Below, one piece after another: positions 6,873-21,581 of a DNA stretch of 23,042 bases (position 1 is the first letter of the stretch; the number at the start of each line of letters is the position of its first letter). A program made the translations under genes and the position numbers. The stretch covers positions 1 to 23,042 of the IMG/VR virus record IMGVR_UViG_3300022745_000709. One strand, given 5' to 3'. The notes beneath the pieces were generated by a model that made no database searches, was not told where the DNA came from, and saw nothing but the letters and a program-made list of their open reading frames with translations. Source of the stretch: a virus.

Positions 6873-9634
6873 GCACGGGGCTGCGGGTCGAGGCGTGGCC
6901 GGGCGGGGTCCGCACGGACATCTCCGCGCTGGTGCGCTACGCGTCCGGGGTCCACATCGAGCGGGGGCGCTCGACGGTGAACCGCACGGCCGGCCCGTCG
7001 ACCGCCGCGCTCACGGTGGACAACGCCGACGGCCGGTTCACGGTGACGTCGCCGCGCGGGCCCTGGTACGGCCTGCACGGGATCGGAACGCAGTATTCGG
7101 TGTCGGTGGACGGCCCGGGCTACCTGTGGTGCGAGCGGTCCGTCGGGGCCCCGCAGTACGCGTCGTGCCCGGACTCGGCCGCGCTGTCGTTCGCCGGCGA
7201 TCTCGACGTCGCGGTCGATGTGGACTGCGCGAAGTGGCAGTACACGCAGCTCGCGGGCAAGTACGTGCGCACGGGCAACCAGCGCTCGTGGGGCCTGTGG
7301 GTCTCGCAGATCGGGTCGGGGCCGGACGTCCTGGTGCTCTCGTGGTCGGCCGACGGGACGACCATCCTGAACGCGGTATCGACGGTCGGCCTGCCGCAGG
7401 TCACCGGGCGCATGGCCGTGCGCGCCACCCTGGACGTCAACAACGGCGCCTCGGGGAACACGGCCACGTTCTACACGGCCGCGACGATCGCGGGCCCGTG
7501 GACGCAGCTGGGCGCCGCGGTGACGGCGGCCGGGGTGACGTCCCTGTTCGACTCCACGGCGCCCCTCGTGATCGGCGACCAGGTCGACGGCCCGAACGTG
7601 ATCGGCGCCCGCAACGGCTACACGCGCAAGCGCTACTACGCGGCCGTCGTCCGCTCGGGCATCGCCGGGACCGTGGTCGCGTCGCCGACGTTCACCGCGG
7701 CCTCGGACCGCGCGGCGAGCCTGACCGACGCCCAGGGCAACGTGTGGACCCCCGGCGGCGGCGCCGAGCTGCGCGCCCGCTCGTACCGGCACACCGGCGA
7801 GCTGGCCGCGTCCGCCCCCGACCAGGACCAATCCGGGGCCGACGCCTGGGCCGACCTCACGATCGGCGGCGCGCTGCGCCGGCTGCAGAAGGACACCCTG
7901 GTCGAGTCCGCGTACACCCGGGCGCTGTCCGGCGGGGCGCTGCCGTCCCTGGCTGAGTGGTGGCCCATGGAGGACCCGTCCGGCTCGACGCAGTTCGGCT
8001 CCGGGCTCGCCGGGGGCGCCCCGGCCGTCCAGGGTGCCGGCGGCGGCATGAGCGCGGCGGCGAACTCGTCGGCCATCCTGTGCTCGACGGCGCTGCCCAC
8101 GGTCTCGACGGCGTCGGTGAAGTTCTCGATGCGCCCGATGGCCTCCGGGGCGTCGACCGTCCTGTGGTTCTCGCAGATCGACCCGAACGCGGTCATCGTG
8201 GCCGACACCCCGCTCCTGCGCATAAACTACGTCGGGGGCACCGTGCGCTCGATCGAGATGCGCTACGTCCTGGGCAACGACATCTACATCCTGGTCACCA
8301 GGGAGGACGGCGGGACGAACTCGTTCGCGACGTCGGCCGTCGGTTGGGCCCGCACCGCGGCCCGCTGGGCGCTCGTCGCCGCGAACTCGGGCTCCGACAT
8401 CGCGCTGCGCGTCGGCAACACGAACCTGACCACCGGCACCACCCTGTTCGTCCCCTGGACGATGACCGGCCAGCAGATCGGCCGGCCGACGTCGATGACG
8501 TACAACCCGTCCCGGGTCGACATGCAGTCCACTGTGCTCGGCCAGGTCAGCGTGCACCCGGTCTCCCTGTCCCTGACCGCGGCCTCCGACCCGGCGACCG
8601 CGTACGCGGGCGAGACCGCCCTCGACCGGTTCGAGCGGCTGGCGGACGAGGTCGGGATCATCCCGGTCGCCATGGGGACCTCGACGACGTCGACGACCAT
8701 GGGGCCGATGTCGCCCGGCACCCGGTGGGATCAGCTTGCCGAGTGCGAGACCGCCAGCCATGGGGTCCTGGCCGACGACCGCGAGGCCGTGGCGATCGTC
8801 CTGGCCGAGGGCACGGCGCTCGGGCGCGCAACGGGCCCGGTGGGCCTGTCGTTCACCGGGGGCGACCTGGTCGGCGGCCGCCCGGTCATGGACGACTCCC
8901 TGATCGAGAACACGATCACGGTCGAGGGCGTCCCCGGCGTCGGCGGCACGGCGATCTACCAGGCCACGGACGGCATCAGCGGGTCGACTCTCGCCGGCGA
9001 GCGCGAGGTCGACTACACGGTCTCCACGGCCACCACGGCGGCCCTGCGCGACCATGCCGCGTGGATGGCCCACGAGGGCACCCCGGCGGAGCCGGTGTGG
9101 GACGGGGCCGCTGTCCACCTGGCCCGCGCGCAGACCGCGGCGCGGGCCGACGCCCTGCGGGCGCTCGACATCGGCGACACCTGGCGGCTGACCGGCGCCC
9201 CGGCTTGGTCCGGGGCCGACGACGCCGATCAGGTCGTCGTCGGCCTGGCGGAGGACGTCGACCAGCTGCAGCACCGGGTGTCCCTGATCTCGCGCCCGGG
9301 CGCCCCGTACCGGGCCGGGCGGTGGTCGGACTCCGACTCCGGGATGCCGGGCCTGACCCGGTGGGCGCCCGGCCCGTGCACGCTCGCGTCGGCGGCGACC
9401 GCCGGGGCGACCACGCTCTCGGTCGCGGTCTCCGGCTGGCAATGGGGGCACGGGGACGGCGACTACACGATCACGGTCGGCGGCGAGCGCTGCACGGTCA
9501 CCGCGGTCGGGGCCCCGTCCGCGGGCGTCCAGGCCCTGACCGTGGTCCGGGGCGGCGGCGGGTGGGCGGCGGCCCACCCTGCGGGCACGGCCGTAGACTT
9601 GGCCGACGGCACCGTATGGCTCTGGAGGGCCTGA
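6869..9634 (+). CDS. Large tail-tip protein (distal tail / tail-associated type)
   Basis: A 921-aa protein translated from a GTG overlapping the tape measure stop. The N-terminal ~90 residues (VEAWPGGVRTDISALVRY...ALTVDNADGRF) look like the beta-rich entry domain of distal-tail proteins. Two regions (about 85-270 and 355-575) have the beta-strand and Gly/Ser/Thr-rich character of LamG/concanavalin-like carbohydrate-binding modules. Residues ~580-800 contain ETALDRFERLADEVGI and DQLAECETASHGVLADDREAVA, which resemble the gp27/Tal-like baseplate hub region of actinophage minor tail proteins. The C-terminus (889-921) carries a LTVVRGGGGWAAAHPAG unit that recurs in the connector protein at 316-1365. 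It probably forms the tail tip and contacts the host surface. No separate Dit and Tal genes are seen, so this may combine both roles. Confidence 0.75.
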   Translation: MSTGLRVEAWPGGVRTDISALVRYASGVHIERGRSTVNRTAGPSTAALTVDNADGRFTVTSPRGPWYGLHGIGTQYSVSVDGPGYLWCERSVGAPQYASCPDSAALSFAGDLDVAVDVDCAKWQYTQLAGKYVRTGNQRSWGLWVSQIGSGPDVLVLSWSADGTTILNAVSTVGLPQVTGRMAVRATLDVNNGASGNTATFYTAATIAGPWTQLGAAVTAAGVTSLFDSTAPLVIGDQVDGPNVIGARNGYTRKRYYAAVVRSGIAGTVVASPTFTAASDRAASLTDAQGNVWTPGGGAELRARSYRHTGELAASAPDQDQSGADAWADLTIGGALRRLQKDTLVESAYTRALSGGALPSLAEWWPMEDPSGSTQFGSGLAGGAPAVQGAGGGMSAAANSSAILCSTALPTVSTASVKFSMRPMASGASTVLWFSQIDPNAVIVADTPLLRINYVGGTVRSIEMRYVLGNDIYILVTREDGGTNSFATSAVGWARTAARWALVAANSGSDIALRVGNTNLTTGTTLFVPWTMTGQQIGRPTSMTYNPSRVDMQSTVLGQVSVHPVSLSLTAASDPATAYAGETALDRFERLADEVGIIPVAMGTSTTSTTMGPMSPGTRWDQLAECETASHGVLADDREAVAIVLAEGTALGRATGPVGLSFTGGDLVGGRPVMDDSLIENTITVEGVPGVGGTAIYQATDGISGSTLAGEREVDYTVSTATTAALRDHAAWMAHEGTPAEPVWDGAAVHLARAQTAARADALRALDIGDTWRLTGAPAWSGADDADQVVVGLAEDVDQLQHRVSLISRPGAPYRAGRWSDSDSGMPGLTRWAPGPCTLASAATAGATTLSVAVSGWQWGHGDGDYTITVGGERCTVTAVGAPSAGVQALTVVRGGGGWAAAHPAGTAVDLADGTVWLWRA

Positions 9635-10062: not shown

Positions 10063-10890
10063 ATGATGCTCACCGGACTTGCCGACGCCCTGCGCGCCGG
10101 CGGACTCGACGTCGTCGAGGTCGACGGCTGGCGCGAGCGCGGCCACGGCCCCATGGCCGATGTGCTCGGCGTCACCTGCCACCACACCGGGGGCCTGAAC
10201 GACCTCGGCACGATCGTCCATGGGCGATCGGATCTCGCGGGCCCGCTGGCCCACCTGTTCCTCGACCGCGAGGGCGTCTTCCACGTCGTCGCGGCCGGGC
10301 TCTGCTGGCACGCCGGCGTCTCGCGCAAGCCCGCCTACACCAACAGCCACCGCATCGGGATCGAGGCGGAGGCGCTCGGCACCGGCGCCGCGGGCGACTG
10401 GCCGGACGCCCAGATGGACGCCTACCGGCTCGGCTGCAAGGTGCTGGCCGGGCACTACGGGTTCGGCATCGACCAGGTGCTGGGCCACAAGGAGACCTGC
10501 GCCCCGCCAGGGCGCAAGACCGACCCCTCGTTCGACATGGCGGCATTCCGCCGCCAGATCACCGCCCTGGAGGACGACATGCCCCTGACCGACAAGGACC
10601 TCGACGCGATCGCCCGGCGCGTGCTGACGATCGACGTGATCGCCGCGCCGTCCGACGTCGCGACCCGGGACAACGCGACCTGGCAGCTGCAGTCCTACAT
10701 CAAGCGGATCGAGTCCCAGTCCCGCGCGGCCCAGGCCTCCGCCCTCGCGCTGCGAGCCCAGGTGACCGCGCTCGCAGCCGCCGTCGAGGGCCAGAGCGCC
10801 GACGGCGTGCGCCAGGCCATCGCCGACGGCATCCGCGACCTTGAGGCCCTGCGGCTCACGCTGGCCCCGGCGCCGGACGCCGCCCAGTGA
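10063..10890 (+). CDS. Endolysin, N-acetylmuramoyl-L-alanine amidase (Amidase_2/PGRP type)
   Basis: A 275-aa endolysin that should cut the bond between muramic acid and the stem peptide of host peptidoglycan. The catalytic domain spans about 30-165. VTCHHTGG (37-44) supplies the first zinc ligand (H40 or H41), CWHAG is at 81-85, RIGIEAE (97-103) contains the conserved Glu region, LGHKE (140-144) gives H142, and GRKTDPSF (150-157) gives the K-x-D/C-P end in which D154 replaces the Cys of T7 lysozyme. From ~170 on there is no known wall-binding repeat; instead a predicted helical/coiled region (about 172-265, Ala/Gln/Arg-rich) may mediate oligomerisation or wall binding. No signal peptide is seen, so release should need the holin downstream. 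GGAGG precedes the first ATG. Confidence 0.9.
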   Translation: MMLTGLADALRAGGLDVVEVDGWRERGHGPMADVLGVTCHHTGGLNDLGTIVHGRSDLAGPLAHLFLDREGVFHVVAAGLCWHAGVSRKPAYTNSHRIGIEAEALGTGAAGDWPDAQMDAYRLGCKVLAGHYGFGIDQVLGHKETCAPPGRKTDPSFDMAAFRRQITALEDDMPLTDKDLDAIARRVLTIDVIAAPSDVATRDNATWQLQSYIKRIESQSRAAQASALALRAQVTALAAAVEGQSADGVRQAIADGIRDLEALRLTLAPAPDAAQ

Positions 10891-11318: not shown

Positions 11319-11531
11319 ATGATCATCCTGTCGAAGGACTGGCGGCTCCTCGTCGCAGCCGCGATCGCGGCGCTGACGGCGTACATCCTGTCCGGCGAGG
11401 TCCACGGCCAGCTCCTGGCCATCCTGAACGCTGCGCTCGCGGGCCTGTCCGCCCTGGTGGCGGTGCCCGGTGCGCGCTCTCTCCCGGCCAGCGGCGGTGC
11501 GCATGCCGTCGAGCCCGGGGACGGCGCCTGA
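11319..11531 (+). CDS. Holin (two transmembrane segments)
   Basis: A 70-aa membrane protein following the XhlA-like gene with a GAGGAGG SD. Two hydrophobic helices are evident: WRLLVAAAIAALTAYILSG (about 8-26) and LLAILNAALAGLSALVAVPGA (about 32-52), joined by a short turn EVHGQ, with a polar C-terminal tail. Size, topology and position next to the endolysin match class II holins, which permeabilise the membrane at the programmed time to release the endolysin. It is the last + strand gene of the left arm and is followed at once by a strong hairpin. Confidence 0.8.
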   Translation: MIILSKDWRLLVAAAIAALTAYILSGEVHGQLLAILNAALAGLSALVAVPGARSLPASGGAHAVEPGDGA

Positions 11532-11547: not shown

Positions 11548-11592
11548 CAGCGGGGGCGCGCCGGGCCTTGAGGGCCGGGCGCGCCCCCGCTG
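11548..11592 (+). terminator. Strong (possibly bidirectional) terminator after the lysis cassette
   Basis: A 15-bp perfect outer stem (CAGCGGGGGCGCGCC at 11548-11562 with its complement at 11578-11592) closes a 15-base segment that has its own GGCC/GGCC inner pairing around TTGA. It lies between the convergent holin and WhiB genes, so it can stop transcripts arriving from either side. There is no T-tract on the + strand. Confidence 0.72.
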
Positions 11593-11689: not shown

Positions 11690-12373
11690 TCACCGGTCTG
11701 CCGATGCCTCGGCCCTCCCGCCCCCACCGGCGGGGGGGCCGTTCCGGTGGAGGCCGGCGAGCGCCTCGGCCGCGCGTCGGCGGGCGGGGGCGGGCAGGCC
11801 CCCGCGGATGGTCGTCCACCAGTCCCGGCGCTCGGGTTCGCCAAGGGCGGACGACAGGCACGCGATGCGCACGTGGCACCTGGCGCACACGTCGAGGGCC
11901 CGGGCCCTGCTGGGCGACCGGTCGTGCCAGATGGCGGGGTCGTCGCCGGCGCAGGCGGCCCGCGAGCGCCAGTCGGGGTCCGGGTCGAGGCGGTAGGCGG
12001 CCACGGCGCGGGCCGCGGCGAGCGCGCGGGCCCGGGTGCCGGCCGCCTGCTGGCGCAGACGTCGGGCCTGGGGGGGCTCGGCGACGCGCAGGACGGCGTC
12101 GTGCGGGGCCTGCGGGGGCCACCCGGCCAGGAACGAGAGCGGGGCCGCGGCCAGGGTGCCGCGGTCGCAGACGATGGCCAGGGTCGGCTCCCCGGGGCGC
12201 GGCCTGCCGAGGACGGCCGGGACGTCGCCGCTGCCCCAGTTGCTCTCGTAGCGGGTCGGTGGCCCGGCGATCAGGACCCGGTCGTCGACCACGATGACCC
12301 GGCGCATGTTGTCGTGCTCGCCGCCGGAGCGCAGGCCGACGGCCATGCCGCGCGAGAGCTGGCGGCGCCTCAC
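11690..12373 (-). CDS. WhiB-like (Wbl) iron-sulfur transcription regulator with N-terminal extension
   Basis: A 227-aa protein with a Wbl domain in residues ~130-195. Four cysteines fit the [4Fe-4S] ligand set: C141 (ACAGDDPAIW), C163 and C166 (DVCARC, CxxC) and C172 (five residues on). The family's turn and basic tail are represented by RRDWWTTIRGGL (182-193), where the usual G-[VI]-W-G-G reads W-W-T-T-I-R-G-G. Wbl proteins bind the primary sigma factor in actinomycetes and change transcription. About 130 residues precede the domain (IVVDDRVLIAGPPTRYES..., then Arg/Ala helix 101-125), whereas usual Wbl proteins are ~80-140 aa in total. The GTG start overlaps the upstream stop (GTGA); shorter starts at M10 or M23 would not remove the extension. 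Confidence 0.85.
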   Translation of the reverse strand: MRRRQLSRGMAVGLRSGGEHDNMRRVIVVDDRVLIAGPPTRYESNWGSGDVPAVLGRPRPGEPTLAIVCDRGTLAAAPLSFLAGWPPQAPHDAVLRVAEPPQARRLRQQAAGTRARALAAARAVAAYRLDPDPDWRSRAACAGDDPAIWHDRSPSRARALDVCARCHVRIACLSSALGEPERRDWWTTIRGGLPAPARRRAAEALAGLHRNGPPAGGGGRAEASADR

Positions 12374-12596: not shown

Positions 12597-13115
12597 TCAG
12601 TCGGTGCAGTAGCCGGCGGAGAACTTGCGGGTCTTCACGACGCGGTCGGCGCCGTCGGACGGGTAGATGTAGATGCGGGTGGCCGCGGCCTTGGTGTAGG
12701 TGCGCTTCTTGCCGCCGTCGCCAAGGGGCATGTCGACGCCGTAGAACGCGCACGGCTTGTCGCTGATGCACTGGGCGGTGGCGGCCGTGAAGCCCTTGTG
12801 CGCGGTGCCCTTGGGGTAGACTCTCACGACGACCTTGCGGGCGCCGGTGGGCACGTCGAGCTGGAAGCGGCGCAGCTTCACGGCCGTGTACCGGTTGCCC
12901 TTCGAGGCCCAGTCGAAGAAGAACACGGCGTCGTGGCCTTCGACGTGGGCGACGCCGTCGAGGCGCCAGGTGTGCTTGGCGGCGGTGGGCTCGGCGCTCG
13001 CGGTGGGGGCGCTCGCCGGGGCGGGCCGGGCGGGGGCCGCGGTGGCGGCGGCCGGGGCGGCGGCGAGGCTGAGGGCGAGGGCGAGGGCCGCGAGGATGCG
13101 GGTGGTGCGGTTCAT
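12597..13115 (-). CDS. Secreted protein with signal peptide, unknown function
   Basis: A 172-aa protein with a classic Sec signal: basic MNRTTR, a hydrophobic core LAALALALSLAAAPAA and an Ala-rich cleavage region (AAATAAPA, likely cut near residue 27). A Pro/Ala/Ser linker (28-46) leads to a beta-rich mature domain of ~125 aa with ARKVVVRVYPKG and TRIYIYPSD strands and three cysteines (C116, C122, C170), two of which could form a disulfide. There is no lipobox or wall-sorting motif. CTGGAGG precedes the ATG, and the gene is first in a - strand unit behind the promoter-like motif at 13197-13211. An outer-surface role such as superinfection exclusion or altered host properties is possible but not shown by any motif. 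Confidence 0.8.
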   Translation of the reverse strand: MNRTTRILAALALALSLAAAPAAATAAPARPAPASAPTASAEPTAAKHTWRLDGVAHVEGHDAVFFFDWASKGNRYTAVKLRRFQLDVPTGARKVVVRVYPKGTAHKGFTAATAQCISDKPCAFYGVDMPLGDGGKKRTYTKAAATRIYIYPSDGADRVVKTRKFSAGYCTD

Positions 13116-13196: not shown

Positions 13197-13211
13197 GTCA
13201 AGTTTAGACAC
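13197..13211 (-). promoter_or_regulatory. Promoter/operator motif copy A
   Basis: On the - strand this reads GTGTCTAAACTTGAC, with a -10-like TAAACT at 13201-13206. It matches 14 of 15 bases of copy B and lies ~80 bases upstream of the secreted-protein ATG. No good -35 is seen 17 bases upstream; the overlapping TTGACA (13196-13201) could instead be a -35, but its -10 would be poor. GTGTC/GACAC arms flank the core. Confidence 0.6.
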
Positions 13212-13261: not shown

Positions 13262-13295
13262 GCGGCGGCCCGGGGGTGAAGCCCCGGGCCGCCGC
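13262..13295 (-). terminator. Intrinsic-type terminator for the right - strand unit
   Basis: A perfect 14-bp stem (arm GCGGCGGCCCGGGG) with a 6-base GTGAAG loop lies ~45 bases past the end of the 13342-13671 gene. On the - strand it is followed by CCTGTTTTG, a short T-run, which makes it the best intrinsic terminator in the window. It separates the two - strand units just before promoter-like copy A. Confidence 0.75.
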
Positions 13296-13341: not shown

Positions 13342-13671
13342 CTACCCGACCGGCGGGGCCGTGGCGGCGCCGTGGCTCAGCTCCGCGCCCGGGTATGGCC
13401 CGAGGCGCTCGGCCGGCACCGGCCAGTACCCGACCCCGGTGTCCCACTCGGCGCCCGGGCGCAGCCGGTAGCGCACGACGCCCAGGCCATAGCCATCCTC
13501 GCCGTACGCGATGACCCCGGGCTCGGCCGTGCGCACGCCCGCGGCCGAGCCCGTCATGAGCGCGGTGAACGCCTCCCGGGTGATGTCGATCCACGCCGGC
13601 GCGGTGACGACGGCGATGTGCTCGGCGCCATCACCGTCGACCATGGTGCGCACGGTGGGCCGCCGGGTCAT
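13342..13671 (-). CDS. Hypothetical protein, last gene of right - strand unit
   Basis: A 109-aa protein whose ATG overlaps the stop of the preceding HTH gene (ATGA), so translation is likely coupled. It is mixed alpha/beta, with VTAPAWIDITREAFTALM and a Gly/Tyr-rich part (EDGYGLGVVRYRLRPGAEWDT, VGYWPVPAERLGPYPG). No cysteine, signal peptide or membrane helix is present. The family is not recognised. The terminator at 13262-13295 shows it is the last gene of its transcript. Confidence 0.62.
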   Translation of the reverse strand: MTRRPTVRTMVDGDGAEHIAVVTAPAWIDITREAFTALMTGSAAGVRTAEPGVIAYGEDGYGLGVVRYRLRPGAEWDTGVGYWPVPAERLGPYPGAELSHGAATAPPVG

Positions 13672-14222
13672 GGCCGGCCTCCCGCGGCCGTGCGGCGGCG
13701 CGCATCGGCGAGGCCTGCGAGCTGGCGAGCCCAGACGGCGCGCGCCACGGTCAGCTCGGCCTCAAGCGCCAGATCGCGGGCGTCGACGGCTTCGCGGACC
13801 GCGGCCTCCAAGACTCGGAGATGGCCACCCGGGGTCACCGTGGAGGCGATGCGGCCCTCGGCCGCCCACCGCCGGATCGTGCTGGAGTCCACGCCGAGCC
13901 GCCGTCCGGCCTGCCCGGTGGTCAGGTAGGCGACGCCGCGGCCCGGGATGTGCGGCTTCGGGGCGGATGGCCGGGCGGGCGCCGGCGGGCGTCCTGGGGC
14001 GGTCACGGGGCCTCCTCGGGGGCGGGGCGCGGGCGGGCGGAGCAGGGCGGAGGCGCGGGCCTCGACGTCGCCGAGGCGCTCGCGCATCTCGTCCATGCGC
14101 TCGGCGTGGTGGGCGAGCCAGGCCCGGGCGTCGCGGCGCTCAAGCCGCGTCCGGACGAAGCTGGCGCCGATGTGGATCAGGATCGCGACGTCCATGGCCA
14201 GGCTCAGGATGGTCAGTGCCAC
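13668..14222 (-). CDS. Membrane-anchored MerR/excisionase-like HTH protein
   Basis: A 184-aa protein combining two parts not usually joined. Residues 2-22 (ALTILSLAMDVAILIHIGASF) form a membrane helix, followed by a charged helix (26-60) and a Pro/Arg/Ala linker (62-92). Residues ~97-150 form a BldC/MerR-type winged HTH: YLTTGQAGRRLGVDSSTIRRWAAEGRI, followed by a GGHLRV wing, cut here at motif level. The GTG at 14222 has a GAGGAG SD. In frame, GTG codon 73 (14004-14006) is preceded by a strong GAGGAGG (14011-14017), so a soluble 112-aa HTH form could also be made. Its target is unknown; DNA binding, excision control or membrane-localised repression are possibilities. Confidence 0.72.
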   Translation of the reverse strand: MALTILSLAMDVAILIHIGASFVRTRLERRDARAWLAHHAERMDEMRERLGDVEARASALLRPPAPRPRGGPVTAPGRPPAPARPSAPKPHIPGRGVAYLTTGQAGRRLGVDSSTIRRWAAEGRIASTVTPGGHLRVLEAAVREAVDARDLALEAELTVARAVWARQLAGLADARRRTAAGGRP

Positions 14223-14231
14223 GGTGGCTCC

Positions 14232-14570
14232 TCAGGAAGCGGGGCGGATGACGGGCTGGGTGGGGCCGGCCCACAGGCCGCGGGTCGAGCGGCCCGGGCG
14301 CACGATGGCGGCCTGCCTGGGGCGGATGGGCAGGTAGCGCATGGTGCCGCCGGGGCCGATGGCCAGGGTTCCATCGGCCCGGCGCGCGTTCGCCCAGATC
14401 TCGATGTCCGCAAGCCGGTACGCGACGTGCGCGCCCCTGCCGTGCGAGCGCGGGCCCAGGTTCCGGCCGCCGCGGTTCTTGCGCCAGGCCCGCAGGAGGT
14501 CGGTGGAGACCCCGATGAGGTCGGCCACGGTGTGGGCCGGCACGGACTCCGGGCCGTCGAGGCGGATCAC
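14232..14570 (-). CDS. Excisionase/AlpA-like helix-turn-helix protein
   Basis: A 112-aa protein with an HTH_17-like DNA-binding region: HTVADLIGVSTDLLRAWRKN (about 13-32), then a basic wing and YRLADIEIWANARRADG (about 51-67). The 'YR..DIE.W...R' ending is characteristic of phage excisionase and AlpA-type regulators. The C-terminal 40 residues are Arg/Pro/Gly-rich and probably disordered. GTG at 14570 overlaps the TGA of the 35-aa gene upstream, with AGGAT as a weak SD. It may regulate excision or transcription, but no integrase is visible here to pair with it. Confidence 0.68.
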   Translation of the reverse strand: MIRLDGPESVPAHTVADLIGVSTDLLRAWRKNRGGRNLGPRSHGRGAHVAYRLADIEIWANARRADGTLAIGPGGTMRYLPIRPRQAAIVRPGRSTRGLWAGPTQPVIRPAS

Positions 14571-14674
14571 GGGCGATCCTGGGTGATGCGGTCCCAGGCG
14601 TAGGCGGCCAGGGCCGTGGCGACGCCGAGGGCGATCAGGGTGCGGGCGGCGAAAACGGTCAGGGCGACGGTCAT
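14567..14674 (-). CDS. Tiny single-pass membrane protein (35 aa)
   Basis: An ORF of 35 codons reading MTVALTVFAARTLIAL, a further hydrophobic GVATALAAYAW and a charged tail DRITQDRP. It forms one membrane helix with a cytoplasmic or periplasmic end of eight residues. The ATG has a good AGGAGCCACC leader, identical over ten bases (14675-14684) to that of the HTH gene at 14222. Its TGA overlaps the next GTG by four bases. These signals make it a credible gene despite its size. No family is recognised. Confidence 0.62.
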   Translation of the reverse strand: MTVALTVFAARTLIALGVATALAAYAWDRITQDRP

Positions 14675-14682
14675 GGTGGCTC

Positions 14683-14835
14683 CTAGAGGATGGTGGCGGT
14701 GACGGCGTGGGCGGTGATCGCGTCGGCCTGGGCCGCGCGGGCGGCGGCTTCGGCGTGCAGGGCGTCGGCGGCGACCGCGGCGATGATCGCGGCCGCGGCG
14801 GCGGCGAGCGTGATCCAGACGGCGACGGCGATCAT
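14683..14835 (-). CDS. Small membrane protein (50 aa)
   Basis: A 50-aa protein with an N-terminal hydrophobic helix (VAVWITLAAAAAAIIAAVAAD, about 3-23) and an Ala-rich amphipathic tail (LHAEAAARAAQADAITAHAV). Its ATG overlaps the upstream TGA (ATGA), and its TAG lies inside the SD of the 35-aa gene. It has the layout of a bitopic membrane peptide. It belongs to a run of six membrane proteins in this operon. Function unknown. Confidence 0.62.
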   Translation of the reverse strand: MIAVAVWITLAAAAAAIIAAVAADALHAEAAARAAQADAITAHAVTATIL

Positions 14836-15338
14836 CGGGCGCTCCCGGCGGGGGCCTGGATGCGGGCGCCGGCGTCCGCGAGGTGGCGCAGGTCGTCCGG
14901 GTTCGGGGGGGTGCCGGTCAGGGCGGCCCGGGAGACGATGTCGATGCGCGCGGCCGTGAGGCAGCGCTCGCAGCGGGGGCGGCCGGCGCAGGCGTGGGGC
15001 TCGCGCAGGCCGAGGACGTCGAGGAGGGCGGGGCCGACGCGGTGCGCGGGCACGGCGATGGCCTGGCCGGAGTCGTCGATGGCGATCGTCCAGTGCGGGC
15101 CGGGGCCGCGCAGGGCGCTGTTCTCGCGCTCCAGGCGGGTTACGGTGGCCGAGATCAGGGCGAGCTGGCGGCGCAGCGGGGACAGGTCGACGATGCGGGC
15201 GGCGCGGGGGTCGGCGTCCAGCTCGAACTGGCGGGGCCGGGCGATGAGGCGGATCTGGGGCGGGTGGATACGGCGCACGATGGACAGGCCGAGGGTCCAG
15301 GCCAGCGCGATGGCCAGGGACGCGGTGAGGGCGGGCAC
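14832..15338 (-). CDS. Membrane-anchored protein with Cys cluster, unknown
   Basis: A 168-aa protein. Residues 3-22 form a likely membrane anchor (ALTASLAIALAWTLGLSIV). A basic/amphipathic part follows, with a heptad stretch (LRRQLALISATVTRLERENSAL, about 55-76) that could be a coiled coil. A compact domain follows, with HACAGRPRCERC (115-126): H115, C117, C123 and C126 could bind a metal. The GTG start at 15338 is preceded by TAGGAG, part of the upstream stop region. The domain after the coil is not recognised. It could be a membrane-tethered regulator or an exclusion protein. Confidence 0.62.
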   Translation of the reverse strand: MPALTASLAIALAWTLGLSIVRRIHPPQIRLIARPRQFELDADPRAARIVDLSPLRRQLALISATVTRLERENSALRGPGPHWTIAIDDSGQAIAVPAHRVGPALLDVLGLREPHACAGRPRCERCLTAARIDIVSRAALTGTPPNPDDLRHLADAGARIQAPAGSAR

Positions 15339-15347
15339 GGGGGGCTC

Positions 15348-15668
15348 CTAGCGGGTGATGGCGGGCAGGGTGGCGAGGCAGAGGGCGAGGGCCCAGAGGG
15401 CGCCGTCGCGCACCGTGGTGGCGGTGGTCTCGGTGCGCCCGGGGCGCGGGCCGACCCAGGGCGCCGGGGGGCGGGCGTGCCGCGGGCGGGCGGGGCGTGC
15501 GGTCAGGGCGAGGAACGTGCCGGTGGTGCCGGCGGCCACGAGGGCCCATCCGGCGAGGGCGGCGATCGCGGACACGGCGCCGGGGTAGGGGTCCACGAGC
15601 AGGATCATCGCCCATCCGGCGGCGGCGGCCGCGAGGCCGGCGGCGAGGGCGGCGAGGCGGGCGATCAT
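15348..15668 (-). CDS. Membrane protein with about three TM segments
   Basis: A 106-aa protein with hydrophobic helices at about 3-26 (ARLAALAAGLAAAAAGWAMILL), 31-55 (AVSAIAALAGWALVAAGTTGTFLAL) and a third near the C-terminus (about 88-104, ALWALALCLATLPAIT). A basic, Pro-rich loop lies between the second and third. The ATG overlaps the TGA of the 26-aa gene (ATGA). Nothing resembles a holin, since the lysis cassette is elsewhere and on the other strand. Exclusion or a membrane-stress role is speculation. Confidence 0.65.
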   Translation of the reverse strand: MIARLAALAAGLAAAAAGWAMILLVDPYPGAVSAIAALAGWALVAAGTTGTFLALTARPARPRHARPPAPWVGPRPGRTETTATTVRDGALWALALCLATLPAITR

Positions 15669-15745
15669 CGGCCTCGACCGCCGACCAGGAGGGCCGCGAT
15701 GGCGATGGCGATGATGATCAGGGTCGCGGTGTCGCCGGCGCTCAC
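15665..15745 (-). CDS. Tiny membrane peptide (26 aa)
   Basis: The ORF reads MSAGDTATLIIIAIAIAALL and ends VGGRGR, with one hydrophobic helix and a basic end. The GTG overlaps the upstream TGA and its own TGA overlaps the downstream ATG, so it is locked on both sides into the operon with no free bases. A GAGG lies upstream. Such peptides often assist membrane complexes, but no function is known here. Being an inter-gene spacer ORF by chance is possible but unlikely, given both overlaps and the clean TM. Confidence 0.52.
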   Translation of the reverse strand: MSAGDTATLIIIAIAIAALLVGGRGR

Positions 15746-16086
15746 GGGGCGACCTCGGCGGCCTTGATGGTGGCCGTGATGGCGTCGGCGTAGAGGTGGA
15801 CGGTGGCGTCGAACTCGGGGTCTGGCAGGGCGCAGTGGTTGGCGAGGTGGTGGGTGAACGCGTCGAGCAGCTCGTCGACGATCCGGTAGTTCGCCATGTC
15901 GAGGCGGATGAGGGTGGCGACGTCGCCGGCGAGGGTGCCGAGGGCGCGGCCGAGGGTGGTGATGGCCTCGGCGCCGAGGTCGGCTTCGTCGAGGACCTCG
16001 AGGGGCGGGGTCCAGGGCAGGGCGGGGCCGAGCGCCGCCTTGAGGAGGCGGTGGCGGGTGAGGGCGGGGTCCGGGCGGTCGCTCAT
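15742..16086 (-). CDS. Hypothetical helical protein, second gene of repressor operon
   Basis: A 114-aa acidic, helical protein (LTRHRLLKAALGPALPW, EAITTLGRALGTLAGDVATLIRLDMANYRIVDELLDAF cut here to show its heptad-like spacing). The C-terminus TVHLYADAITATIKAAEVAP is also helical. Its ATG overlaps the stop of the XRE-like gene, and AAAGG lies upstream. No DNA-binding, membrane or metal motif is seen. As partner of the first gene it could be a co-regulator or antirepressor, but nothing in the sequence proves that. Confidence 0.66.
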   Translation of the reverse strand: MSDRPDPALTRHRLLKAALGPALPWTPPLEVLDEADLGAEAITTLGRALGTLAGDVATLIRLDMANYRIVDELLDAFTHHLANHCALPDPEFDATVHLYADAITATIKAAEVAP

Positions 16087-16421
16087 GAGGAGTGCCTTTC
16101 GCTGGGCATGGCGCGGATGGCCTCGATGCTGGAGACGGGCGGGGAGGTGTAGGCGATGGATCGGCGCATGTCTCGGATGATCATGGGCTTGAAGGCGGTC
16201 AGGGGGATGCCGGTGATGCGGGACATCGCCTCGGCTTCGAGCGGATGCCATCGGCGCACGCCGGAGCATTTGCGCGAGAACGCGATCTCGGTGAGGGGCT
16301 CGGTGCGGGTGAGGGACCATGCGGCGACGATCTGGCGCTGGTTGATGCCGAGGTCGGCCAGGGCGTGCCGGATGCGCCAGCGCAGGGGGCGCTCGGGCTG
16401 ACCCGGGAACGGTTGGTTCAT
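16083..16421 (-). CDS. Probable XRE/Cro-type repressor
   Basis: A 112-aa protein, first gene of the - strand unit and divergent from the recombination genes. Residues ~16-70 fit a Cro/C1 HTH: a helix (IRHALADLGINQRQIVAAW), a loop, IAFSRKCSGVRRWHPLEAEAM and SRITGIPLTAFKPM, the last echoing the usual 'i.r..nG...p....l..ia..lgvp' pattern. The loop between helices 2 and 3 is long, so the match is imperfect. The C-terminus holds no known dimerisation domain. Promoter-like copy B lies at 16453-16467, giving a leader of ~28 bases with no evident SD before the ATG. The position suggests an immunity repressor or Cro-like switch protein. Confidence 0.58.
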   Translation of the reverse strand: MNQPFPGQPERPLRWRIRHALADLGINQRQIVAAWSLTRTEPLTEIAFSRKCSGVRRWHPLEAEAMSRITGIPLTAFKPMIIRDMRRSIAYTSPPVSSIEAIRAMPSERHSS

Positions 16422-16452: not shown

Positions 16453-16467
16453 GGCAAGTTTAGACAC
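16453..16467 (-). promoter_or_regulatory. Promoter/operator motif copy B
   Basis: On the - strand it reads GTGTCTAAACTTGCC, with a -10-like TAAACT at 16457-16462. It lies about 30 bases before the XRE-like start, so it can drive the - strand operon. A direct repeat of CTTGCC follows with CACGTCAAGG between, hinting at an operator. No clear -35 is seen. Confidence 0.62.
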
Positions 16468-16599: not shown

Positions 16600-16605
16600 T
16601 ACGCT
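16600..16605 (+). promoter_or_regulatory. Candidate -10 (TACGCT) for the recombination operon
   Basis: TACGCT fits TANNNT and is followed after one base by CTTGC, as in copy C of the promoter motif. It is 34 bases upstream of the exonuclease ATG. The -35 region is not convincing, so this could be an activated or weak promoter. Confidence 0.4.
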
Positions 16606-16617
16606 ACTTGCAACGCT

Positions 16618-16636
16618 AACCCCCCGCCCAGGAGGA
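16618..16636 (+). repeat. 19-base leader shared with the second early unit
   Basis: AACCCCCCGCCCAGGAGGA here is identical to bases 20470-20488. It includes the SD (AGGAGGA) and lies directly before both operon-leading start codons. The CCGCCCAG part recurs before two further genes (21634-21641, 22273-22280). Confidence 0.8.
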
Positions 16637-16639
16637 ACC

Positions 16640-17608
16640 ATGCAGCGCATCGGCACATCCGGCCACGTGCTCGGCAGCCCACCCCCCGGCAGCCCCGAAT
16701 GGCTCGCCGCCCGGCGCGGCGGCATCACCGCCACCGACATCCCCAAGATCCTCGGCCTCAACCCCTACGAGGACGCCCTGGCCGTCTGGCACGACAAGCG
16801 CGGCACCCTGCCCGACGCCCCCGCCGGCGAGGCCGCCTACTGGGGCACCGTCCTCGAGGAGCCCGTGGCCCGCGCCTGGGCCGAGCGCGCCGGCGTGCGC
16901 GTCAGGCGCGTCGGCATCGCCGCCCACGCCGGCGAGGGCTGGCGGCGCGCGTCCCTGGACCGCGTCATCATCGGCACCCGCGGCCGCCGGGCCCTGGAGG
17001 TCAAGACCAGGTCGGCGTACGTCGCCGGCCGGTGGGCCAGCGAGGTGCCCGACGACGTCCTGGCGCAGGTCGCCTGGCAGCGCGCCAGCCTCGGCCTGGA
17101 CGTCGTGCACATCGCCGTTTTGATCGGCGGACAGGAGCTGAGGGAGTTCGCCTACGAGCAGGACAGCGTGCTCGAGGACCACCTCCTCGAGCACGCGCGC
17201 CGGCTGTGGCGGTGCGTCATGGACGGCGTGCCGCCGCTGGTCGATGAGAGCGAGGCCCTGGCGCGGGTCCTGGACCGCCTGCACCCGGACCGCGCGGGCA
17301 CGGTGGATATCGACGGGCCGCGCGGCCAGATGCTGCGCGAGCGCTATGAGCAGGCCCGCGCCGACGCGAGGGCGGCCGACGCCGCCCTGGCCGAGGCGCG
17401 CGCGGCGATCCTCCTGGCGCTGCAGGGCGGCGACGTCCTGACCGCGGACGGGATGCGCGTGGCGACGTACCGGGCGCAGACCCGGCGCTCGCTCAGCGCC
17501 GGCGCGGTCGAGAAGGCGGCGCCCGAGCTGTACGCCCAGCTGATGGGGCTGGGCCTGGTGACCGAGACGACCAGCCGCGTGATGCGCCTGGTCGGGACTG
17601 GAGAGTGA
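16640..17608 (+). CDS. YqaJ-type viral recombinase (exonuclease)
   Basis: A 322-aa protein that should be the 5'-3' double-strand exonuclease of a phage homologous recombination pair, making single-strand tails for the RecT protein encoded next. The YqaJ (lambda exo) nuclease fold is visible: SPEWLAARRGGITATDI (18-34), WGTVLEEPVARAW (68-80) with E73/E74, RASLDRVI (103-110) with D107, ALEVKT (118-123) giving the E120-x-K122 pair, and AQVAWQ (142-147) with Q143. These are the expected metal and catalytic residues of this superfamily. The C-terminus (about 230-300) is a coiled-coil-like Ala/Arg/Glu helix. ATG at 16640 follows AGGAGGA. RecT overlaps its stop by four bases. Confidence 0.92.
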   Translation: MQRIGTSGHVLGSPPPGSPEWLAARRGGITATDIPKILGLNPYEDALAVWHDKRGTLPDAPAGEAAYWGTVLEEPVARAWAERAGVRVRRVGIAAHAGEGWRRASLDRVIIGTRGRRALEVKTRSAYVAGRWASEVPDDVLAQVAWQRASLGLDVVHIAVLIGGQELREFAYEQDSVLEDHLLEHARRLWRCVMDGVPPLVDESEALARVLDRLHPDRAGTVDIDGPRGQMLRERYEQARADARAADAALAEARAAILLALQGGDVLTADGMRVATYRAQTRRSLSAGAVEKAAPELYAQLMGLGLVTETTSRVMRLVGTGE

Positions 17609-19024: not shown

Positions 19025-19200
19025 GGCCGGACACGGTGCGCGTGGCGCGCACGGTCGTGGGCCCGGGCGGCGAGTGCTGCGAGTGCGACCAGGCCGAGTG
19101 CGACGGCATGTGCGCGCCGGCCGCCGCCGCCGAGGCGTTCCACGACGCCCTGTTCAACACGCCCGTGACGGTGATCCTCGGCGTGGAGGCCCCGTCGTGA
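19021..19200 (+). CDS. Small Cys-rich protein, possible metal binder
   Basis: A 59-aa protein from a GTG overlapping the previous TGA. It has a dense cluster GGECCECDQAECDGMC (about residues 16-31) with five cysteines in 13 residues and interleaved acids. The pattern C-C-x-C-x4-C-x3-C could bind zinc or an iron-sulfur cluster, but it does not match a common zinc finger. The rest is a hydrophobic helix/strand end (PVTVILGVEAPS). Its stop overlaps the next gene. No family is recognised. Confidence 0.6.
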   Translation: MRPDTVRVARTVVGPGGECCECDQAECDGMCAPAAAAEAFHDALFNTPVTVILGVEAPS

Positions 19201-19628
19201 GCGGGCCCGGGCTGCCGGGGCGCTGGTGGCACGGTGGCGCCCCCGGTCTGCGCGCGGGGGACATGATCGTCCCGGGCCATGAGCGGCGCGCGGTCGAGGG
19301 CTGCCCGTGGTGCGAGGCGCGGGCCCGGGGCGATCACCGCCTGGGCGATGGGCCCGTGGGCCGGCCCGACCAGGTGTACGTGACCGGGGTGCGGGAGTAC
19401 GCGCGCTACTACGCGTCGCTGTGGGGGCGCGGGGACCTGTACCGGGTGGAGCCCGAGGGCGACCTGGAGGTCTCGCACGAGGACACCGTGCCGACGTGGA
19501 CCGCGCCCGCGGCCCGCGTGGTCGCGGTGGTGGAGAGGGCGGTGCTCCTCACGATGGGGCAGAGGCGCCGGCTCTACCGGATCTGGACTGCGGCGGATGC
19601 CGTGGCCCTGGAGAGGAGCAGATCATGA
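19197..19628 (+). CDS. Arr-like ADP-ribosyltransferase candidate
   Basis: A 143-aa protein with the general layout of small rifamycin ADP-ribosyltransferase (Arr)-like enzymes: WWHGGAPGLRAGDMIVPG (10-27) resembles the 'YHG....l..GD.i.PG' start, DQVYVTGVREYARYYASL (58-75) resembles 'vYfT..l..A..ya', and GDLYRVEPEGDLEVSHED (79-96) resembles the 'iY.VeP.G....D' strand. ARVVAVVERAV ends the core. H12, Y61 and an acidic residue near D89-D96 would be the expected catalytic set. Such enzymes move ADP-ribose from NAD+ to a small molecule, protein or nucleic acid. Phage versions often modify host proteins. The target cannot be known here. A CxxC (about 36-39) is an insertion. Confidence 0.6.
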   Translation: MSGPGLPGRWWHGGAPGLRAGDMIVPGHERRAVEGCPWCEARARGDHRLGDGPVGRPDQVYVTGVREYARYYASLWGRGDLYRVEPEGDLEVSHEDTVPTWTAPAARVVAVVERAVLLTMGQRRRLYRIWTAADAVALERSRS

Positions 19629-20429: not shown

Positions 20430-20458
20430 TTGCGCTCACGCACCTATGTGTCTAGACT
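20430..20458 (+). promoter_or_regulatory. Sigma-70-type promoter with motif copy C
   Basis: TTGCGC (-35, 20430-20435) is spaced 17 bases from TAGACT (-10, 20453-20458), a good fit to an actinobacterial housekeeping promoter. The -10 sits within GTGTCTAGACTTGCC (20448-20462), the third copy of the 15-base motif. The downstream ATG is at 20493, leaving a leader of ~28 bases with AGGAGGA. Confidence 0.75.
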
Positions 20459-20469
20459 TGCCACATCCG

Positions 20470-20488
20470 AACCCCCCGCCCAGGAGGA
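20470..20488 (+). repeat. Second copy of 19-base leader
   Basis: AACCCCCCGCCCAGGAGGA is identical to 16618-16636 and carries the SD for the gene at 20493. The bases before it (CTTGCCACATCCG) are also partly similar to those of the first copy (CTTGCAACGCT), which suggests a common origin of the two control regions. Confidence 0.8.
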
Positions 20489-20492
20489 CACC

Positions 20493-21581
20493 ATGAGCAC
20501 CGACCGCGACCAGGCCATCGTCGACCAGTGGGCCGCCGAACTGGCCACCGGCCTCGCCTTCGACCGCGCCGCCCACGCCCGCGAGGGCTTCGTCACCGGC
20601 CTCGCCGAGCGCGGCCGCATGCCGTACTCCCCCGCCCAGATCGCCGGCATGGTCCGCGCGGTCACCGCCGGCGTCCAGCGCCTCATGGCCGAGGCCCCGG
20701 CCTGGGACCGCTGGGGCATGGTCGCCGCCATGCTGCTGCAGGCCGTGACCGCGACGACGTCCGACGGCGCGGTCGCCGCGCTGTGGCGCGCCGGGGCCGA
20801 GGCGGTGTGCGCCGGCTTCCAGGACGCGGCCCTGACCGCGATCGACCGCCCCCTCGTGCGCGACCGCGACTACGTGCGCCGCATCGGCGACGACCCGGCC
20901 CGCCTGATCGCGCTCTGGGTCGCGATCCAGGGCATCGTGGACGCGGTCGAGGCCGTGAGGGGCGGCACCCGGTCGACCGTGGGCGGCCTCGGGTGGGTGC
21001 CGGCGCGCCTCGCGGCCGCGCATGGCCTGGATGTCGACGCCCTGATGGGCGTGCGGCGCGCGCAGCCCGGGGACGCCGCGGCGTCCCGGGCCCGCGGCCA
21101 GGCCCTCCTGGCGGCGGCCGCCGCCAAGATCGAGGCGGCCGAGGCCGCCCGCGCCGCCGAGGCCACCCCGGCGCCCGCCGAGGCCCCCGCGGCGACCGGG
21201 TTCACCGGGGCCCCCGTCGACCGCGCCGACGTGCGCGTCGGCGACCTCGCCCACGGGGACGACCTGCGGGCCCCAATGGCCGTCCTGCACACCGGGCCCG
21301 CCCTGGTGCTCGTCGACGGCGACGGCGAGGAGCTGTGCACCCGCGGCCGCGGCCTGACGTTCCGGCGCCCGCTCGCGCCGGCCGGGGTCCGCGGCCCGCT
21401 GGTCGCCCGGCACCTCGTGCGGCGCGGTGACATCGCCTGGTTCCCCGGCGACCGCGTCGCGCTGGAGGTCGTCGGCGCGAGCGAGGGCCTGGGCCTGGTC
21501 CTGCGCGAGCCGGCCGGGACCGAGCTTCTGGTCCCCGGCACCGGGTGGGTCTTCGCCCGGCCGAGCGCCGACATCGACTGA
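20493..21581 (+). CDS. Hypothetical protein with helical N-half and beta C-half
   Basis: A 362-aa protein, first gene of the unit driven by promoter copy C. Residues ~5-200 are helical, with long amphipathic stretches (QIAGMVRAVTAGVQRLMAEA, MVAAMLLQAVTATTSDGAVAALWRAGAEAV and RLIALWVAIQGIVDAVEAV, each shown separately). An Ala/Glu-rich linker (203-235) connects to a beta-rich C-domain (about 240-362) with repeated strands (RADVRVGDLAHGDD, ALVLVDGDGEELCTRGRGLTF, DIAWFPGDRVALEVV). No catalytic motif is recognised. The gene ends at a 24-bp palindrome. Length and promoter suggest a major early product. Confidence 0.72.
   Translation: MSTDRDQAIVDQWAAELATGLAFDRAAHAREGFVTGLAERGRMPYSPAQIAGMVRAVTAGVQRLMAEAPAWDRWGMVAAMLLQAVTATTSDGAVAALWRAGAEAVCAGFQDAALTAIDRPLVRDRDYVRRIGDDPARLIALWVAIQGIVDAVEAVRGGTRSTVGGLGWVPARLAAAHGLDVDALMGVRRAQPGDAAASRARGQALLAAAAAKIEAAEAARAAEATPAPAEAPAATGFTGAPVDRADVRVGDLAHGDDLRAPMAVLHTGPALVLVDGDGEELCTRGRGLTFRRPLAPAGVRGPLVARHLVRRGDIAWFPGDRVALEVVGASEGLGLVLREPAGTELLVPGTGWVFARPSADID

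Follow-up and report, generated by a model that had tools for sequence, protein, structure and literature searches.

The minus strand of the DNA studied here carries a real, unusually dense operon of membrane-protein genes for which no relatives were found and which occupies a genomic slot of a known type. The window, i.e. the whole stretch analysed, is the entire IMG/VR record IMGVR_UViG_3300022745_000709 (23,042 bases, 75% GC), an incomplete record representing a fragment of a viral genome. Within it, a unit of ten genes runs on the minus strand from 16421 to 13342 in the order rep1, rep2, m26, m106, m168, m50, m35, hth112, tmhth184 and g109. We tentatively read this unit as a lysogeny-linked cassette for exclusion or defence at the membrane, a hypothetical function to which we would give somewhat less than an even chance.

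The junctions between the ten genes measure, in order along the unit, -4, -4, -4, +9, -4, +8, -4, +9 and -4 nucleotides; six are overlaps of 4 bases, and the other three are gaps of 8 or 9 nt, the longest in the unit. In each of the three gaps the stop codon is embedded within the Shine-Dalgarno (SD) sequence of the next gene (TAGGAG, TAGGAG and TGAGGAG). This agrees with the initial annotation, which had described genes overlapping by 4 bases or sharing SD and stop. The five genes m26, m106, m168, m50 and m35 form a translationally coupled block. A GC-rich intrinsic terminator (13262..13295, minus strand; 14 G-C pairs followed by TTTT) closes the unit 47 nt past its last stop codon, the end of the unit being the sole position at which a terminator is present. 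Since 4-base overlaps are frequent across the whole phage, the packing of the unit is ordinary; its run of TM proteins is not.

The first gene, rep1 (16083..16421, minus strand), lacks an SD site and encodes a repressor-like HTH protein of 112 amino acids, which weakly matches a phage repressor family (PHROG 2328, transcriptional repressor, E = 3.7e-4) and gave no match in Pfam, NCBIfam or PDB. It is followed by rep2 (15742..16086, minus strand), which codes for a soluble protein of 114 amino acids with no recognisable domain, neither an HTH match nor a family match being obtained. Of the “repressor pair” assumed in the initial annotation, only the first member is thus retained, and with a weak match. 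The reading frames for membrane proteins of 26, 106, 168, 50 and 35 amino acids, said to come next, were all found in place on the minus strand. The GTG-initiated m26 (15665..15745), which overlaps its neighbours by 4 bases on both sides, encodes a predicted single-pass membrane protein of 26 residues (TM score -1.6). The 106-residue membrane protein m106 (15348..15668; TM score 0.6) exhibits about three hydrophobic helices, their number being read from the sequence, and a very basic loop. In the single-pass protein m168 (14832..15338; GTG start; TM score 0.1) an N-terminal TM anchor precedes a soluble part of about 145 residues with a CX5CX2C stretch; its AlphaFold model (mean pLDDT 54, helix 5-24) is too poor for a structure search. 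The last members of the block are the Ala-rich single-pass protein m50 (14683..14835; 50 residues; TM score -0.9) and the likewise single-pass m35 (14567..14674; 35 residues; TM score 1.7), whose SD overlaps the m50 stop. The label “very small” given to these membrane proteins suits m26, m50 and m35 but neither m106 nor m168, the latter being mostly soluble. The charges, as read from the sequence, suggest that the C-termini of m26, m168 and tmhth184 are inside, those of m35 and m50 being ambiguous.

An independent gene caller, written in-house with a codon model trained on open reading frames of at least 250 amino acids only, recovers the same ten genes unprompted. Coding scores per codon amount to 0.48 for m26, 0.49 for m35 and 0.59 for m50, values reached by none of 123 background reading frames of 20-60 amino acids from the same DNA. 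In-frame coding scores are high, while the other minus-strand frames score mostly negative. TM helices were predicted from simple hydropathy and a Hessa-type scale rather than with a trained predictor. Among 3000 random peptides generated from the codon usage for each gene, an equally good TM helix occurs in none for m26 and for m50 and in 13 for m35, in line with the clean TM helices previously attributed to the 26- and 35-residue products. One might suppose that Ala-rich frames of GC-rich DNA simply mimic membrane genes, as the GC content of the window and the failure to find relatives would permit; yet the background frames, the mostly negative scores of the other frames and the exact coupling of stop to start codons and of stops to SD sequences speak against such an artefact so clearly that we consider it scarcely credible. 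By default, Prodigal applies a minimum gene length of 90 nt and would drop m26 (81 nt) and keep m35 (108 nt). At this setting, the expectation that both genes are easily missed by automatic annotation applies to m26 but not to m35.

Together with tmhth184, the five membrane proteins make up six TM genes among seven consecutive ones, the soluble hth112 being the exception. TM genes account for six of the ten genes in the unit versus three of 31 elsewhere in the window (Fisher p = 0.003). In a survey of 187 related phage and prophage loci (5508 genes), to which the same caller was applied, six small TM genes among seven consecutive genes occur in no locus, five in a single one, where the run is located close downstream of the tail gene, and at least four in eight. 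Of the 85 loci that contain RecT, none has three or more small TM genes in the 7 kb upstream of it on the other strand. TM genes of up to 40 amino acids are not rare in themselves, 18 of them being distributed over 16 of the 187 loci.

According to the initial annotation, a fusion of a TM segment with an HTH domain follows the 35-residue protein. This fusion exists as tmhth184, but it does not succeed m35 directly, as the soluble hth112 (14232..14570, minus strand; 112 amino acids) is inserted between the two. The latter harbours an excisionase/MerR-like HTH (PHROG 2474, E = 3.4e-4; weak MerR/HTH_17 matches) and shares 37% identity over 59 amino acids with an early HTH gene of a surveyed locus (L047), which is flanked by a Cro-like gene and RecE. 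In tmhth184 (13668..14222, minus strand) an N-terminal TM helix, an amphipathic helix and a disordered linker precede a BldC/excisionase-type HTH domain (BldC, E = 1.1e-10; excisionase TIGR01764, E = 5.3e-9). Its scores lie above the cut-offs of TIGR01764 (36.3 bits, cut-off 28.8) and Pfam HTH_17 (34.8, cut-off 27), whereas the score of 41.2 against the BldC model remains under that model's own cut-off of 77. The protein also matches BldC in the PDB (6amk, E = 7e-5) and, at 51-53% over 46 amino acids, the Xis proteins of Brujita, Babsiella and BIB phages. A structural model of low confidence predicts helices at residues 2-24 and 29-61, disorder up to about residue 101 and, behind it, the HTH and a long helix. 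Known BldC and phage Xis proteins are small and soluble, whereas tmhth184 carries the same type of HTH on an N-terminal TM helix; among 63 surveyed HTH proteins of this type none possesses a separate N-terminal TM helix. No other part of the unit is as odd as this BldC/excisionase-type DNA-binding domain attached to a membrane anchor. The last gene, g109 (13342..13671, minus strand; 109 amino acids), received no assignment from profile searches.

No relatives of m26, m106, m168, m50, m35, rep1 or g109 were found in the collections searched, which differ by protein, the shortest proteins having been compared with the fetched loci only. In tblastn searches against 50,697 phage records rep1, m168 and m106 produced no match and rep2 noise only (E = 0.5). 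No relative of rep1 emerged from 394 actinobacterial genomes, viral contigs or phage records, and none of m168 from a pattern scan of viral and genome contigs. A class-wide genome search returned nothing but composition-biased hits at noise level (best E about 5e-4, 21 bits) and, having no positive control, constitutes a weak negative. Two groups of candidates were discarded: four viral loci matched by tmhth184 (L006-L009) have only the Pro-rich linker and no other gene in common with the unit, and m26-like peptides in two loci (L190 and L200), situated just upstream of the tail gene, look like tape-measure segments as judged by position and sequence. The unit is missing from loci with related tails, namely Eklok, Chymera, prophages and 80 viral loci (tail identity up to about 36% over the whole protein). 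Comparison of the operon proteins with defence and exclusion families yielded a generic HTH match only. Rfam and tRNA scans gave no hits, and hence no sign of a known type I antitoxin RNA.

Plus-strand genes for head-tail adaptor, major tail, tape-measure, tail, amidase and holin-like TM proteins extend up to 11531. The genes between 16421 and 11690 are on the minus strand, and from 16640 onwards the plus strand carries RecE/RecT together with early genes. RecT is 43-54% identical to the RecTs of many actinobacteria and their phages, the best identity of the large tail protein among everything found is about 36% over its whole length, and no close relative of the phage was found in the collections searched. 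The genes called in the 23-kb fragment include no terminase, portal, replication or integrase gene; the record being incomplete, an integrase may be located elsewhere. The 349-residue product of a plus-strand gene at 316-1365 matches a head-tail adaptor in its N-terminal third and, weakly, a tail protein in its middle. Another at 19197-19628 (plus strand) matches a small family annotated as ADP-ribosyltransferase from Gordonia and Arthrobacter phages (identity up to 66%; PHROG 17296, E = 8e-45). A near-perfect 20-bp inverted repeat at 11548-11592, between the convergent holin-like and WhiB genes, is probably a shared terminator. The WhiB-like protein (11690-12373, minus strand) features an N-terminal extension of about 130 residues, and its gene lacks an SD site. 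The gene sec172 (12597-13115, minus strand; 172 amino acids), whose product has a signal-peptide-like N-terminus and no family match, is possibly a secreted cargo gene.

Ahead of rep1, an operator- or promoter-like 13-mer, GTGTCTAAACTTG, is present at 16455..16467 on the minus strand. An exact copy (13199-13211) precedes sec172, and a copy with one mismatch (20448-20460, plus strand) precedes a gene of 362 amino acids. These two exact copies and the third with 1 mismatch, described by the consensus GTGTCTA(A/G)ACTTG, compare with 0.42 matches expected when up to three mismatches are allowed. All three are intergenic, intergenic DNA making up 6% of the window, and each is oriented in the same way relative to its gene. 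The 13-mer may function as an operator or belong to a phage promoter. Its absence from the RecE promoter region weakens the case for rep1 repressing early lytic genes via this element. The leaders of the RecE gene (16600-16642) and of the 362-aa gene (20448-20496) have the stretch AACCCCCCGCCCAGGAGGA before the start codon in common.

A lysogeny-linked cassette is favoured on account of the genomic slot, known from Butters and BaxterFox, and of the membrane pair cotranscribed with the repressor in CarolAnn. In this Gordonia phage (gp45-gp44-gp43) the repressor shares its transcript with a RexAB-like pair of defence genes, whose products, a membrane protein and its soluble partner, abort infection by other phages (PMC6426606). 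Pairs similar to that of CarolAnn occur in Butters and Sbash, and in Charlie a single expressed membrane protein blocks DNA entry (PMC6426606, PMC7542560, PMC6426596); gp30/gp31 of the cluster N mycobacteriophage Butters serve defence (PMC7542560). The present unit resembles that of CarolAnn in lying leftward in the presumed immunity region of an actinophage with a repressor-like gene preceding a membrane protein gene. The two differ in that CarolAnn gp43 comprises four TM helices and has a soluble partner, whereas five TM proteins of other sizes are encoded here. Instead of the four-TM channel and soluble DUF4747-like partner of the RexAB/CarolAnn layout, we find about three helices in m106, one in each of the others and no family match for rep2, and those membrane proteins of the unit that were searched against the phage collection gave no sequence match. 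A membrane gene linked to the repressor is also reminiscent of lambda cI-rexA-rexB; here, however, there is no RexA or RexB match, and about three TM helices or one are predicted rather than four.

In Butters, whose RecT is 49% identical, the slot between lysis genes and RecE/RecT likewise contains a minus-strand unit which starts with a repressor and includes a membrane protein and a DNA-binding protein. The Butters central region encodes repressor, integrase and membrane gene on the minus strand, whereas our unit is devoid of integrase and far denser in membrane genes, and no homologue of a Butters operon gene was found in it. In BaxterFox, the opposite-strand slot between lysis genes and RecE/RecT is taken by a repressor-first immunity operon, which contains an integrase. 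The unit thus shows the layout of a leftward immunity operon, adjoining RecE/RecT on the opposite strand with a repressor-like gene first, weakly matched as rep1 is, but among the genes called in the 23-kb fragment there is no integrase in or beside it. In 42 of the 85 RecT loci an integrase lies no more than 7 kb upstream of RecT. In L055 (3174-4212), a leftward repressor-like HTH gene followed by a gene for a 144-aa membrane protein adjoins RecE/RecT. Superinfection exclusion proteins such as Charlie's exclusion protein, Sie2009 and Ltp are small membrane proteins that are expressed in the lysogen and block DNA entry; the products of the unit resemble them in their predicted membrane location.

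In our preferred explanation, the phage would be an actinobacterial siphovirus and the unit the leftward operon of its immunity slot, headed by a repressor. Rep1 would control its own promoter via the 13-mer, so that the coupled membrane genes would be made together with rep1. Their small products may assemble in the cytoplasmic membrane, m106 forming a multi-span core and m26, m50 and m35 single-span partners, while the cytoplasmic part of m168 could serve as sensor. Such an assembly might protect the carrier cell from other phages, either by keeping DNA from entering or through depolarisation of the membrane on infection, in a mode likened by analogy to Charlie's exclusion protein or CarolAnn's RexAB-like pair; tmhth184 would keep its DNA-binding domain at the membrane. 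Besides the synteny, precedents and integrase frequency given above, the coding and TM statistics, the terminator, the 13-mer copies, the repressor-like gene at the head of the unit and an excisionase-type HTH domain in the operon argue for a lysogeny-linked cassette. Against it stand the lack of an integrase in the fragment, the presumptive nature of the temperate lifestyle, the lack of the 13-mer at the RecE/RecT promoter, the expected site of action of an immunity repressor, the failure to find relatives and the weakness of the rep1 match. The initial annotation had likewise proposed a repressor-linked candidate for exclusion or defence; the linkage and the genomic slot lend support to this proposal, while a matching defence or exclusion family and an integrase are missing.

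Close behind, given that the fragment lacks an integrase and lysogeny itself is presumptive, though in our view rather unlikely, comes an early lytic operon. Switched on right after infection, it would produce small membrane proteins altering or poisoning host membrane functions, with rep1 as a Cro-like early regulator; host takeover and the blocking of competing phages during infection are proposed, equally guardedly, as its effects. The want of a strong immunity-repressor match for rep1 conforms to this, as do the very small TM genes in the 16 surveyed loci and, in particular, the locus L099 (IMGVR_UViG_3300031949_000024). There, at 5681-7150, an HTH gene overlaps by 4 bases with a 27-aa TM gene, followed by TM genes of 55, 98 and 128 amino acids, most of these genes likewise overlapping by 4 bases, and the 98-aa protein combines a TM helix with a Cys-containing tail as m168 does. 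Mini-TM genes of early lytic-type operons also count against a link to lysogeny. The L099 genes are, however, unrelated in sequence, fewer in TM proteins and part of a rightward early operon ahead of RecE/RecT, whereas our unit occupies the strand opposite to RecE/RecT, as do the immunity operons of Butters and BaxterFox. Moreover, the excisionase-type domain suggests a temperate background.

It is improbable that the membrane proteins serve to position tmhth184 and hth112 and to hold phage DNA at the membrane, for instance for segregation of an unintegrated prophage or for control of excision. Such tethering would accord with the architecture of tmhth184, a TM helix joined by a long linker to the HTH and without counterpart in the survey, with its location in the same operon and with the missing integrase. 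Yet the TM helix contains D and H and scores a marginal 2.4, the model is of low confidence, and the idea, suggested by tmhth184 alone, leaves the five other membrane genes unexplained. Slightly more doubtful still is a combination in which the five co-translated small proteins would constitute a membrane complex recruiting its own DNA-binding protein, exclusion or defence being coupled to gene control via the membrane-anchored excisionase-type regulator. On Streptomyces plasmids, translationally coupled genes for small membrane Spd proteins lie beside an excisionase-type HTH. Despite this similar look, we deem a borrowed conjugation or spread module very unlikely, as m106 has no plasmid match and m168 noise only, and no FtsK-type transfer gene is among the genes called. 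A role as lysis genes (holin/antiholin) was rejected because the lysis cassette resides elsewhere: the unit is neither adjacent to nor on the strand of the Amidase_2 endolysin gene (10063-10890, plus strand), which has its own holin-like TM gene (11319-11531, plus strand).

Time and again, membrane genes beside phage repressors have proved to encode defence or exclusion systems, and the smallest of them are too short for the length limits of common annotation. The unit described here holds more small membrane genes together than any of the 187 comparable loci. If its genes act together, they would represent a new multi-part membrane system; otherwise, they are a clear case of overlooked phage mini-proteins.
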